Assembly (NCBI GenBank): GCA_010672925.1
Contig: JAAHFP010000001.1
Span: forward strand, 62,001-126,000
From: Symploca sp. SIO1C2
GTDB taxonomy: Bacteria > Cyanobacteriota > Cyanobacteriia > Cyanobacteriales > Coleofasciculaceae
DNA length: 64,000 bases
Reading direction: 5' to 3'
The notes below the pieces were generated by a model. The model searched no databases. It had not been told where the DNA came from and saw only the letters and a program-made list of their open reading frames with translations. Positions within the stretch are counted from its first letter, which is position 1, and each line of letters begins with the position of its first letter. The position numbers and the translations under genes are program-made. Positions 52,808 through 61,781 of this stretch are shown piece by piece.

Positions 52808-53605
52808 ATGACCAAAGTTTCCCATTGTTTCCAGTCTTTACGAGAGCGCGGTGAGTGTGCTCTGATTCCCTTCATCACTGCTGGCGATCCAGATTTACAG
52901 ACAACAGCTCAAGCGCTACAAGTGCTTGACACCTCTGGTGCAGATATAATTGAGTTGGGAGTTCCCTATTCTGACCCTCTTGCAGACGGTCCTACTATTC
53001 AAGCAGCTGCGACTAGAGCTTTACAGCGGGGTGTTTGCTTGGATGATGTTTTGGAGGTAGTTAAGGAAGTTACTCCTAAGCTCAAAGCTCCCCTGATCCT
53101 ATTCACCTACTACAACCCCATTCTTAATCGAGGCATTGAATTATATTTAGAACAACTTGCCAGTGCAGGGGTTCAAGGATTGTTAGTACCGGACTTACCT
53201 TTAGAAGAAGCGGAATCAATTTTAAAACCGGCAGCTGAAATTGGGATTGAGATAGTATTGCTAGTTGCACCGACAACGCCTAAGGAGAGAATTCAAGCAA
53301 TCGCACAGCAGTCTCAGGGATTTATTTACCTCGTTAGTGTGACTGGGGTAACTGGGATGAGAAGCCAGCTGGAGTCGCGAGTGCAAGATTTACTCCAGCA
53401 GATGCGCACAGTAACAGACAAACCCATCGGTGTTGGTTTTGGTATTTCCCAACCTGAGCAAGCGCAGCAGGTAAAAAATTGGGGAGCAGATGGAGTCATT
53501 GTTGGTAGTGCGATTGTCAAGCGCTTAGCAGATGGCACACCAACGGAAGGATTGTCTGCAATTGGAGAGTTTTGCCAGAGTTTAAAGTCAGCTATTAAAA
53601 ATTAA
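52808..53605 (+). CDS. trpA: Tryptophan synthase alpha subunit
   Basis: Cleaves indole-3-glycerol phosphate to indole and glyceraldehyde-3-phosphate (EC 4.2.1.20, with TrpB). 265 residues. Catalytic Glu in [20 protein letters not shown] ... [20 protein letters not shown] (Glu and Asp), phosphate loop [15 protein letters not shown], and loop 6 GVTGMRSQL. Upstream genes ndhL and DUF3007 read the same way. The 3' end overlaps the end of the convergent CHAT gene by 4 bp. Confidence 0.97.
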
Positions 53606-54864
53606 GCTTCTAATTTCACCATAGAAAGCCGCTCAACATTTCGTATGCTGTAAATATCTGGAACGGCTTCCCATTCTAGTTGCTCTGTTCCTAAACCTAA
53701 ATGGCGTGAGCGGGCGTAGAGAACAGGACAAGACCAATCACTAAAAGATACTGCTGGGTGTTTATCAACAAACAACTCAACTCTCACATCACGTAAGGCT
53801 TGATCTATGCGCTTTCCATACTTGATCAAACTGGTGTAAAATCTCTTACTTAGTCGATAACTAGCCCTATAGGTAATGGCATGATTAGTCGCTACTATGG
53901 CTGGAATACCTGCCTCATTCAAGTTATGAGCCATATTAACAAATTCACTGTTGTTGATATTGACGTTAGGTGTTCCATTATTATTTGAGAATATCTCACT
54001 GAGTATTTCAGTTTCTACGGAATTGGCTAGATCACAGGTGTTTAAAAAACATAGACCTAAATTGTGGCTTGTTGCTAAACTGTTTAGTAAGCGTATAGAT
54101 AACTGCCCAAAATGTTCCCTATTACTAGAATTACCACAGTTGCTATTTGCTTCATCTCTCCAAACGACTAGGGAACTGTCTAAAGGAGTTTCAATATTTA
54201 AAAAGCCGTGACCAGTGAAGTGAAATATATCTACCCCTTCAAAGAGAATTTCCTTGATTCTTTCCACTGTTGCTTCCTGTTGCCAACAAGTGGATACTCT
54301 CACTTGCTCACCAAAACTCTCAATCAGCTGCACTAGAGCCTGATGTTCTTGTTCCAGAACCGGTAATAACCTGGAGCTAATCGGATCAACAGCCACAATC
54401 AGTATATGCAACTGTTTTCGGGTTTTGAGGGGAATATTAATTGGTCGTGGCACAAAAGGTTGCCTAATAATATTATGTCTCAATCCCAGATATTCATTAT
54501 GGCAGCGCATCACCTCCCACTGAATAGAGTTGAGATAAGAACTACCCAGTATTAATCTTAGATCAATTTGTGAGTTTTCCGAGCCTCCAACAGTTCGGTT
54601 AAACAAAGTAAGTATGTCATCTTGAAATATGCCATTGAATAACTTACTCCCAAATAGCTGAAGTTTTGGCTCAATATCCCGCTTCAGGTGGGGATATCTG
54701 ATGAGTCTTTTGTAAGAAACTCTCAAATATTTGGACTCTTCAATCATCTGACTGAAAAAGTCTTGTTTAATTTGAATTGCAGCCTCACCAAAAGCTGATT
54801 CCGCTATAACAGCACCATGATCCTTAATCGGAATAATCTTTAAATCAAACCGTGATGAGATCAT
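53602..54864 (-). CDS. CHAT-domain peptidase, His-Cys dyad intact
   Basis: 420 residues. The C-terminal CHAT (caspase-like) domain has the catalytic His in [14 protein letters not shown] (His219) and Cys in [14 protein letters not shown] (Cys277). The N-terminal ~150 residues, with [20 protein letters not shown] and [20 protein letters not shown], form a domain shared with the adjacent CHAT protein. No TPR, NACHT or signal peptide. It lies 28 bp after the other CHAT gene and is presumably its operon partner. CHAT proteases act in caspase-like and phage-defence responses (TPR-CHAT with CRISPR type III-E is one example); target unknown here. Confidence 0.88.
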
Positions 54865-54892
54865 TTAATCTATCCTTATCAATTTACTTTAT

Positions 54893-56092
54893 CTAACTAG
54901 CTTGAGATTCCCGGGAGTACAGGACAGGGGTAAACCAGTCCGAAGGTGGTAATAAATCCCTATGAGCAAATAGCTCCAGTCGAACTTGTCTGACAGCTTT
55001 ATAAATACTTTCTTGGCGCTCAATTACAGTACGATAAATTCTTTTGGTAAATATTTCTGCGCCCATTTTGGAGATGGGATGAGACATACCGATGACACAG
55101 GGTACTCCTGTTTTAATCAGAGCATGAGCTATGCTTTTATATTGAATTTTGTCTAGTTTGTCAATATGTTTTTTCAGGGAAGATGAGTATCGATAAAGGA
55201 TAGCTTGGTCTGATCTACAAGCACTCAAGATGATCAGCTGCATGGGATTTACTCGGCAAAAACTCTCCAGCATTTCCACTGGCATTTTGTCGTATTTTTG
55301 ATTTTGTTCTTCGCTCAATACTAGAAAATGATATTTTAGATTATTACTGCGATATTCACATTTACCATCAGCCAGAAAATGTAAAATATCTACACCATCA
55401 TAAATCCCATTGGCAATTTTGCTTAAAGTAGCATCTTTAATAAATTTTCTTAATTTTTTATTTTCAGGTTTAATCGCAGTTGCTACTGCTTCTATCTGCT
55501 CTTTTACATAAGGCTCGTTTAAAGGATTAGCTCCAACAAACAAAACTCTTATCTTGTCTTCACTAGATATTGGTCTTCTTACTGGCTGCTGAATGAAAGG
55601 ATGTCGAACTAGATCATACACATGACATAGATAAGTATCATCATTGTACAATAGTTCCCAGGGAATTAAATTGAGGAAGTCACTAGCAATCATCAATCTG
55701 ACAACCACATCACTCTTAGAACTGATTGCTTGACCTACAACTACATTAAAGAGGTCGAGAATGTGGTCATGAAAAATGTATTTAAATAGTAGCTCCCCTA
55801 ATTCTTGCAGATTTTCAACTAATTTCAACCTGGTTTTCCTAGTATTATCTCGTTGATTTGATTTCTTTTCCTTATTGCTACCATGATTAACAGTTTTAGA
55901 CTGATTAGGTGCAACTTTGCTTTTAGGAAAAAATTTATCAATTTGCTTATGTATAAAGATGGATTTTCTGATTAATTCTTCTACTTTTGGTTCTTCTATA
56001 AGGGAATATGCTTCACCACTTGAGCCAGTACAAATGACTAGAATCTGCCTATCGATATAGTAAAGTTGCAAATATAGTTCTGAACTCGGCAT
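54893..56092 (-). CDS. CHAT-domain protein, catalytic His replaced (probable pseudo-protease)
   Basis: 399 residues. Same layout as the neighbour: N-terminal domain (ELYLQLYYIDRQILVICTGS), a Lys-rich linker (~60-90), LGELLFKYIFHDHILDLFNV and VRLMIASDFLNLIPWELLYN, then CHAT. The Cys is kept (IILSACRSD, Cys292). The segment aligned to FTGHG reads FLADG, so the catalytic His is Asp242. Loss of the dyad suggests a regulatory or recognition subunit. First gene of the two-gene unit; its leader starts just upstream at ~56100. Divergent from groES. Confidence 0.85.
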   Translation of the reverse strand: MPSSELYLQLYYIDRQILVICTGSSGEAYSLIEEPKVEELIRKSIFIHKQIDKFFPKSKVAPNQSKTVNHGSNKEKKSNQRDNTRKTRLKLVENLQELGELLFKYIFHDHILDLFNVVVGQAISSKSDVVVRLMIASDFLNLIPWELLYNDDTYLCHVYDLVRHPFIQQPVRRPISSEDKIRVLFVGANPLNEPYVKEQIEAVATAIKPENKKLRKFIKDATLSKIANGIYDGVDILHFLADGKCEYRSNNLKYHFLVLSEEQNQKYDKMPVEMLESFCRVNPMQLIILSACRSDQAILYRYSSSLKKHIDKLDKIQYKSIAHALIKTGVPCVIGMSHPISKMGAEIFTKRIYRTVIERQESIYKAVRQVRLELFAHRDLLPPSDWFTPVLYSRESQAS

Positions 56093-56256
56093 TTTTAATC
56101 TAGCTTTTTTGTACCTATTATGCTAATGTAGCAGTTTTTGTCTGCTAAATTCAAGGCAACAGGGAGACATTTCCCGTTCCCAATTCAACCTTAGACCTTC
56201 TGTTCGGGAACCCGTACAAGAGAATTTATTGCCATAGCCTGCTGAGTTTGAGTAAA

Positions 56257-56283
56257 TTAGCACTCAAGAGCAGAGAGTGCTAA
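56257..56283 (+). promoter_or_regulatory. CIRCE operator of groESL
   Basis: Perfect TTAGCACTC (56257-56265), 9-nt spacer, GAGTGCTAA (56275-56283). This is the HrcA repressor site controlling groESL in many bacteria including cyanobacteria. It ends 34 bp before the groES start. hrcA itself is not in the window. Confidence 0.97.
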
Positions 56284-60012: not shown

Positions 60013-61047
60013 TTGAAATCACAGAAAACCAAAGCTGGAACATCTAAAGGAACAAAAGGCGTGACGCAAAATCCCCCAGAAAACCTCCCTAACAAAACTA
60101 AATCGAATGAAGTTTATCTTTCCATGCTCAACGAAGTTGTAGAACTTATGGAAACCTCCCGTCGTCAGGCATCCCGCTCTATCAACTCAATTATGACCGC
60201 AACTTATTGGGAAATTGGACGGCGGATTGTTGAGTTTGAACAGTTGGGGGAGAGCAGAGCTGAATACGGTAAGCAACTTATTTCACGCCTTGCTCATGAT
60301 CTCTCAACTCGGTTTGGTAGAGGATTCTCCAAGCGCAATCTTGAACAGATGAGGCGTTTTTACTTACTTTGGTCAATTACGCAGACACCGTCTGCGCAAT
60401 CTCAAGTGCCTGACTTTAAGCAAAAATTCCCCTTGCCTTGGTCTCATTACATCCAATTACTTTCGGTTAAATCAAACGAAGCCAGAGCCTTCTATGAAGA
60501 ACAAGCCTTACAAGGGGGTTGGTCAGTTCGGCAGCTACGGCGGCAGATTTCAACCCAATTCTACGAGCGTACCTTATTATCTCGCAATAAGGCAGCTATG
60601 TTGGAAAAAGGTACTCAGTCTCTCCCTTCGGATACTATTTCCCCTGAAGAAGAGATTAAAGACCCTTTTGTTTTAGAGTTCCTTGCTCTCAAAGATGAGT
60701 ATTCAGAAAGCGACCTCGAAGAAGCACTCATCCAACATATTGAGAGTTTTCTTCTAGAATATGGAAAAAATACGCCCCTCAAACCCTTGTCCAGTAAGGC
60801 ATCGACGCACCTCAACGAAAAATATAGGGTTTCAGCGATCTGTCGAGGTGCGTCGATCAAAAGCAAAAAAATGCGCTCAAAACCAGATATGGCAATACTT
60901 TGGCAAGATTCACAACCCACGATTGGGTGCAACTTAAACATATCTGTAAAGTTCCGTAAAATGTCCAAGCGACTTACCCAAAAAACCCAATTCACCATAA
61001 AGCGGTTACGTCAAGCCATTGATAGTGCCGTTTGTTGTTTGTCCTAA
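60013..61047 (+). pseudogene. DUF1016 (YhcG-like) nuclease with disrupted catalytic domain
   Basis: The first ~250 residues are normal: DUF1016 N-terminal domain (SRRQASRSINSIMTATYWEI GRRIVEFEQ, FSKRNLEQMRRFYLLW, PLPWSHYIQLLSVKSNEARA). The PD-(D/E)xK domain should follow FLLEYGKN with a strand-rich nuclease core. Instead the frame enters a 57-bp hairpin insert at 60801-60857, rejoins at DSQPTIG, a late piece of the domain, and continues with unrelated Lys/Arg-rich residues. A core of roughly 70 residues including the catalytic motif is missing. The protein is unlikely to cut DNA. Starts at a TTG just after the glycosyltransferase; true start uncertain. Confidence 0.72.
60801..60857. mobile_element. 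57-bp hairpin insert in the DUF1016 gene
   Basis: ATCGACGCACCTC (60801-60813) and GAGGTGCGTCGAT (60845-60857) are perfect 13-bp inverted repeats around a 31-nt AT-rich loop. It lies where the nuclease domain is broken. Confidence 0.78.
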
Positions 61048-61172: not shown

Positions 61173-61481
61173 TTAGGCTATATTTGTAAATGGGGTAACA
61201 GGAATGCGACTATACACTTCTGCATTACTTTCCTGAGCCTGGCGGAGATCATAGTGCGTTTGAAGATTCAGCCAGAATTGAGCACTGTTACCAAAGTAGC
61301 GTGACAGGCGCAGAGCTGTATCTGCGGTAATGCTACGCTTTCCAGCCAAAATTTCGCTGATACTGGTTTGAGCTACACTCAGATCCTTGCTAAGTCTGTA
61401 GGGTGTAATATCTAGTGGCTCCAGAAAATCTAACTTCAGGATTTCACCAGGATGGACATTTGGTAAACGGTTGGTTTTCAT
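61173..61481 (-). CDS. higA: HigA-family antitoxin (XRE helix-turn-helix)
   Basis: 102 residues. LPNVHPGEILKLDFLEPLDI TPYRLSKDLSVAQTSISEIL is the HigA opening with the helix-turn-helix; ADTALRLSRYFGNSAQFWLN is the conserved follow-up. It neutralises HigB and represses the operon. Follows higB after 15 bp, in the toxin-first order that is characteristic of higBA. Confidence 0.94.
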   Translation of the reverse strand: MKTNRLPNVHPGEILKLDFLEPLDITPYRLSKDLSVAQTSISEILAGKRSITADTALRLSRYFGNSAQFWLNLQTHYDLRQAQESNAEVYSRIPVTPFTNIA

Positions 61482-61496
61482 GGCATTGAGCTACTT

Positions 61497-61781
61497 CTAA
61501 TGGTAGTCCACTATTTCCACCTGATTAGCATTGCCCTCATCCGTCCATAGGAAACAAATTCTCCATTGGTCGTTAACGCGGATGCTATATTGCCCTTCGC
61601 GATCGCCTTCCAACTTATTTAGCCGATTACCCGGCGGGACACGCAGATCGTTAATTGATACTGCTGCGTCAAGTATCCGAAGTTTTCGTAGAGCAGCTGA
61701 CTGAATATCAGGTGGGTAGTAACGAGACTGAAAACCCTCGAAAATGAGTTTGGTCTCTTCGGATTTGAAATTTACGCTCAC
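61497..61781 (-). CDS. higB: HigB-family toxin (RelE/ParE superfamily)
   Basis: 94 residues from a GTG start. AALRKLRILDAAVSINDLRV PPGNRLNKLEGDREGQYSIR and VNDQWRICFLW are the HigB/RelE core; Arg, Lys and the C-terminal YH region form the RNase site. It cleaves mRNA on the ribosome when HigA is lost. The MITE at 61798-61958 ends 17 bp upstream of the start codon, so it must overlap or replace the promoter. Confidence 0.93.
   Translation of the reverse strand: MSVNFKSEETKLIFEGFQSRYYPPDIQSAALRKLRILDAAVSINDLRVPPGNRLNKLEGDREGQYSIRVNDQWRICFLWTDEGNANQVEIVDYH

Follow-up and report, generated by a model that had tools for sequence, protein, structure and literature searches.

Two genes of the CHAT family lie side by side on the minus strand of the window, the analysed stretch of 64,000 nucleotides from Symploca sp. 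SIO1C2. Both reading frames are open over their whole length, encode proteins of 420 (P0001) and 399 (P0002) amino acids, and are separated by 28 bp. The genes flanking the pair are trpA and groES (Pfam). The features of the locus are the following.

52808-53605, plus strand: trpA, named from Pfam; its stop overlaps the stop of P0001.
53602..54864, minus strand: P0001, the downstream CHAT protein, 420 aa, with His219 (HFTGHG) and Cys277 (NTCDLA) present (ORF, Pfam, alignment).
54865..54892, minus strand: intergenic gap of 28 bp with an AAGGA ribosome-site-like stretch (sequence).
54893..56092, minus strand: P0002, the upstream CHAT protein, 399 aa, with Cys292 present and Asp242 replacing the catalytic His (ORF, Pfam, alignment).
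56098..56150, minus strand: upstream segment that three genomes of the genus have in common; it contains a degenerate DNA dyad and a match to a sigma-70-like promoter (CAGACA-16-CATAAT, 56144-56117).
56257..56283, no strand assigned: perfect 9-9-9 inverted repeat TTAGCACTC-N9-GAGTGCTAA (sequence).
From 56318: groES-groEL, divergent from the pair, named from Pfam.

The matches of the two proteins to the CHAT family (PF12770) stand well above the curated Pfam cut-off of 24 bits (76 bits, E 4.3e-21; 82.2 bits, E 5.9e-23), which bears out the original prediction of two CHAT genes 28 bp apart. CHAT is the sole Pfam domain in both; P0001 also has a C25 peptidase match just under the cut-off. The two are 27% identical over 321 aligned columns (E 1e-41). 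The residues predicted at the active site are found as described: P0001 carries the CHAT His-Cys dyad, and P0002 is without it, having HFLADG with Asp242 (GAT codon) and SACRSD with Cys292. By sequence P0002 is a degenerate member of the family, and by motif it is predicted to be no active protease. The N-terminal parts, which had been described as a shared domain, show the same succession of three strands and one helix in both low-confidence models, and this part of the claim stands; the likeness in sequence is weak, with 11 of the first 44 positions of P0001 invariant in a four-row alignment. No TPR match was found in either protein (Pfam, E up to 1), nor any Pfam match to a SAVED domain. 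The SAVED_CHAT model of PADLOC gave weak matches only (E 0.0075 and 4.6e-6, model positions 183-254 and 211-271 of 498), and the scores for HetF were 11.3 and 14.7 bits against an NCBIfam equivalog cut-off of 1200 bits.

The predicted structures are poor, with a mean pLDDT of 50 for P0001 and 44 for P0002, from alignments of four rows only. The best match of the P0001 model is the SAVED-CHAT structure 8tl0 (Z 16.3, rmsd 3.1, 179 aligned), followed by caspase-7 (near Z 12), Craspase 7zoq (Z 10.9) and separase (Z 10.7). The top match of the P0002 model is also 8tl0 (Z 10.3, rmsd 3.7, 146 aligned), followed by the anti-sigma factor DdvA (Z 9.1, rmsd 8.0) and separase (Z 8.5); DdvA is a weak row for the P0001 model as well (Z 11.9). 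As far as such models go, these matches agree with a CHAT fold and show nothing beyond it. Sequence searches of solved structures returned weak matches to cyanovirin fusions and to a Notch-pathway protein, which were judged to be chance, and no match for P0002.

The 12 other ORFs scanned between 48 and 62 kb of the window, a selection of those present, comprise genes of metabolism and housekeeping, small DUFs, one DUF1016/YhcG protein and one HigBA-like pair. No Cas7-11 (gRAMP) gene adjoins the pair or lies among these 12 neighbours, and no nucleotide cyclase gene is among them. That the pair has no TPR, NACHT or CRISPR partner is likewise upheld within this scope, CHAT being the only Pfam domain above cut-off in either protein and no such partner occurring among the 12 ORFs. 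The HigBA-like pair (window 61173-61781, minus strand, Pfam) consists of a HigB-like toxin gene followed by a helix-turn-helix gene and resembles a type II toxin-antitoxin pair. The DUF1016/YhcG-type protein is encoded at window 60013-61047 on the plus strand; this ORF may be truncated or frameshifted, because its YhcG_C nuclease match covers profile positions 2-42 of 157 only.

We infer that P0001 and P0002 may be carried on one transcript, which is consistent with the 28-bp gap and the AAGGA stretch. Promoter-like matches in the region are not commoner than in shuffled sequence (10 vs 8.2 +/- 3.0). The inverted repeat at 56257..56283, which we take to be the CIRCE heat-shock operator motif, presumably belongs to the divergent groES and not to the CHAT pair. 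A heat-shock link of the pair through groES was considered and rejected, the pair in a sister species not adjoining groES. The DNA dyad upstream of the pair (window 56110-56150) is good in a third genome of the genus (G002) and degenerate in the window and in the sister species, as judged by eye. With a shared operator or regulon in view, its pattern was scanned across the genome with 3 mismatches allowed; one other site was found, vs 0 for a reversed-pattern control. This other site (G000:C164:68621-68651) has 7-bp arms by eye and lies between ORFs of 139 and 106 aa.

The sister species (genome G001) has orthologues of both proteins, at 79% and 82% identity, in the same gene order and likewise with a gap of 28 bp. 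Its upstream protein has HLLTHG and STCRSE, that is, the His-Cys dyad is present. The codon at the His position is CAT in G001 and GAT in the window, one base apart, and the codons near Asp242 of P0002 also differ from G001 in ordinary ways. His is present in all 11 of the more distant CHAT loci of other genera from the order scan (10 with HFIGHG, 1 with HYAGHS) and in five plasmid CHAT proteins, one of which (L131) is identical to L030. Because His is found in the G001 orthologue, the 11 distant loci and the five plasmid proteins, the His-less P0002, so far seen in the window species only, is most simply regarded as derived; the ancestral His is thus deduced from the relatives that have it. 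Asp242 would be a substitution specific to this species, although a base error or a polymorphism is possible.

These observations do not support the fixed design of the original prediction. An active protease paired with a pseudo-enzyme is not a conserved design, because the upstream protein of G001, the sole complete orthologue, has His (HLLTHG). Nor is a His-minus subunit kept upstream in the one other species with a complete pair; in G002 the search at E 1e-15 detected no upstream gene. A His in most species where P0002 has FLADG had been named beforehand as telling against the prediction; it occurs in the sole complete orthologue, which is one species and not most, and in 11 of 11 distant loci. 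Absence of the pairing elsewhere had been named too, and this is not the case, the pair being complete in G001. The description as a self-contained unit survives in part: there are two genes with no added known domain, whose order and 28-bp gap are kept in G001 between different neighbours, but the fixed active/pseudo-enzyme design does not belong to it.

The pair was found in the genus of the window only, complete in G001 and as pieces at contig ends in G002. A search of 57 genomes, the window's own among them (E 1e-15), detected P0002 in two, its own and G001, and P0001 in three, these two and G002, the last with a piece of 98 residues; in a class sample (E 1e-12) P0001 was found in 1 of 388, its own genome; and the four-row profile matched 4 of 20 genomes of a family sample (E 1e-18), the fourth a distant one, 13 of 388 in an order sample (E 1e-15) and 2 of 386 in a phylum sample (E 1e-18), its own and one distant, these samples overlapping and being drawn from larger groups. 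By identity, the orthologous members of the order sample are the three of the genus, and the remaining 10 genomes have more distant CHAT domains within larger proteins. A single locus came from one scan of public genome contigs; it belongs to Symploca sp. SIO2C1, very probably the same genome as G001. Carriage by phage or plasmid was considered and set aside. One scan of viral contigs gave no relative, and plasmid records gave 4 matches for P0001 and 7 for P0002, at 22-27% identity; in the five examined the CHAT domain lies inside open frames of 714 to 1,395 aa. The upstream gene of G002 was not found in its assembly at E 1e-15. The literature matches listed, a coverage with preprints and most subscription papers outside it, include none on a stand-alone CHAT pair.

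CHAT domains are frequent in the genome of the window species (G000, 8.7 Mb), with 83 places, 67 of them in open frames of at least 500 aa. When all 83 were translated with up to 150 bases on either side and searched with a loose His-then-Cys pattern, the His motif followed by the Cys motif was present in 77. The six places outside the pattern are four pieces without the region (C90:16196, C71 and two at C112:750 kb), one at C229 that has the His motif and a stop before Cys, and P0002. Thus His is kept in 78 of the 79 places spanning the motif, the exception being P0002. A count per ORF with a custom profile, which missed one place, gives His in 76 of 77 CHAT ORFs (72 by pattern, 4 by eye). 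The loss of His in P0002 is unusual within its own genome. Three other close pairs of CHAT ORFs, each on one contig (C178, C191 at 100-104 kb, C221), keep the dyad in both members. The two ORFs in tandem at C221 (L036) are closely similar to each other, and at C90 (L064) a CHAT gene is split over two frames.

In a maximum-likelihood tree of 23 chosen CHAT domains the four proteins of the genus form one clade (100/99), and P0001 and P0002 are each joined to their own G001 orthologue; the branches are long and the wider placement is unsure. P0001 and P0002 are shown to be sister paralogues. Both genes look constrained between the window species and G001, with dN/dS values of 0.185 (P0001) and 0.148 (P0002) that average the whole time since the split and say little on the period after the loss of His. 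The end branch of P0002 is 0.057, vs 0.20 for the His-bearing orthologue of G001, and because it is short there is no sign of decay of P0002 after the loss.

The neighbours of the G001 pair are an asparagine-synthase gene on one side and, on the other, a gene with no Pfam match; in the window genome the homologous flanks are on other contigs. Between 51.5-59 kb of the window and the G001 stretch, the sole conserved block found is 2.5 kb long and comprises both genes and about 58 bp upstream. Matches to trpA and groES are on different contigs in G001, and likewise in G002. The groES contig of G002 stops a few bases short of where the upstream gene would start and has a 53-bp match (85%) to the upstream segment of the window, and another contig ends inside P0001; the groES neighbourhood of the pair is therefore probably common to G002 and the window. 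A mobile cassette with clean target sites was also considered, the flanks being unlinked elsewhere, but it is indistinguishable from the general rearrangement of the genus and was set aside. That the pair stays together amid differing neighbours favours functional coupling. The conserved pairing rests on one complete orthologous pair, with G002 contributing pieces at contig ends, and the survival of one adjacent pair in the shuffled gene order of the genus is moderate evidence for such coupling.

The pair is tentatively read as a dedicated CHAT (caspase-fold) cysteine protease module of two subunits, the upstream one having recently lost its dyad in the window species; this is the most likely reading, with a probability a little short of even. 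The two genes would be co-transcribed and their products would assemble with each other, P0001 supplying the His-Cys catalysis. Both subunits probably still had the dyad in the common ancestor of the two species. The upstream subunit would then have lost His in the window species, for which one base change can suffice, and P0002 would now probably act as a regulator or scaffold. That the pair acts in stress or defence is a guess from the family. A more specific version, an obligate hetero-oligomeric CHAT protease in which one subunit is in transition to a pseudo-protease regulator, with the complete dyad in the sister and without His here, is rather unlikely; if true, it would provide a natural before/after pair for the origin of pseudo-enzymes in caspase-like systems.

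The best surviving alternative, somewhat unlikely, is that the two are independent CHAT proteases with separate substrates that share a transcript by chance, P0002 having lost catalysis here as a first step of decay. The full dyad kept by the upstream protein of G001 and the low identity of the paralogues (only 27%), which are on long separate branches, are as such independence would have them, but P0002 is of full length and without stops, with a low between-species dN/dS and a short end branch. It is less probable still that the Asp codon reflects an error of base calling or assembly, or a minor polymorphism, and that the true P0002 has its dyad intact, as in the sister species. GAT and the CAT of G001 differ by one base, P0002 is the sole His-less place of 79, and the codon is known from the assembly alone, which is in 245 contigs; the open frame over the full length of P0002 and the ordinary differences in nearby codons speak against an error. 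A self-contained anti-phage or cell-death cassette, in which the upstream protein would sense infection and set the downstream protease free, is quite improbable: CHAT proteases do act in Craspase and in SAVED-CHAT defence, SAVED-CHAT is the best structural match of the P0001 model (pLDDT 50) and the pair is restricted to the genus and in different genomic places, but the PADLOC matches are weak (E as above), the conflict hints among the 12 neighbours are the HigBA-like pair and the DUF1016 protein only, 4-6 kb away, and CHAT proteins are commonplace in this genome.

The two-subunit reading may be set beside known systems. The SAVED-CHAT protease is an effector of CBASS and type III CRISPR defence. 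It is the top solved-structure match of both low-confidence models (Z values as above), but no SAVED domain was found in the pair and the PADLOC match extends over a part of the CHAT region only. A CHAT protease is reported to act in Craspase, whose TPR-CHAT protein (Csx29) has the CHAT caspase fold that the low-confidence P0001 model matches (7zoq); the pair differs in having neither a TPR match nor a Cas7-11 gene among the 12 neighbours scanned. To our knowledge, the roles of most CHAT proteins are unknown. In vWA-MoxR conflict systems about 70% of the caspase domains at the vWA effector position are reported to be inactive, and where a caspase-like domain occupies that position the VMAP component nearly always has one as well (Kaur et al. 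2020, PMC7159879). The idea of pairing active with inactive caspase-like domains appears to be the same as here, whereas those domains are described as fused to vWA and VMAP proteins and the present pair consists of two paralogues that stand alone; the main text of that paper is without the word CHAT. Pseudo-orthocaspases, which nearly all sequenced cyanobacteria are reported to have (Klemencic et al. 2019, PMC6426788), are cyanobacterial caspase-fold proteins with the dyad lost, as is partly so in P0002. They are described as having Tyr-Ser for His-Cys in the p20 domain, conserved across taxa, whereas P0002 has lost His alone and in one species. Active/inactive caspase-like pairing, described in other bacterial conflict systems, is not new as a principle. 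What is particular here is a free-standing, genus-restricted CHAT pair with a natural His difference between sister species, and no new kind of system is established. Being small and free of further known domains, the pair lends itself to biochemistry, and a difference of one catalytic residue between sister species lets one ask what a non-cutting caspase-like subunit does.

By profile score, the closest CHAT domains outside the genus are those of the HFIGHG group in larger cyanobacterial proteins, for example WP_167727962.1 of a Tolypothrix sp. PCC 7910 plasmid. The group comprises 11 loci (E 8e-16 to 1e-26), with a CHAT domain similar in length to that of the pair. Unlike the pair, its members sit in larger open frames, from 499 aa, where the locus truncates the frame, to more than 1,500 aa, and unlike P0002 all 11 keep His. 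WP_167727962.1 is AAA-like according to its record annotation, and Roc-like and HEAT-like parts were read by eye in proteins of the group. A plasmid-borne unit of this closest group lies at 4845-9500 of L131, from the Tolypothrix sp. PCC 7910 plasmid: only 12 bp separate a CHAT protein annotated as AAA-like from a second AAA-like protein downstream, with an integrase gene close by.
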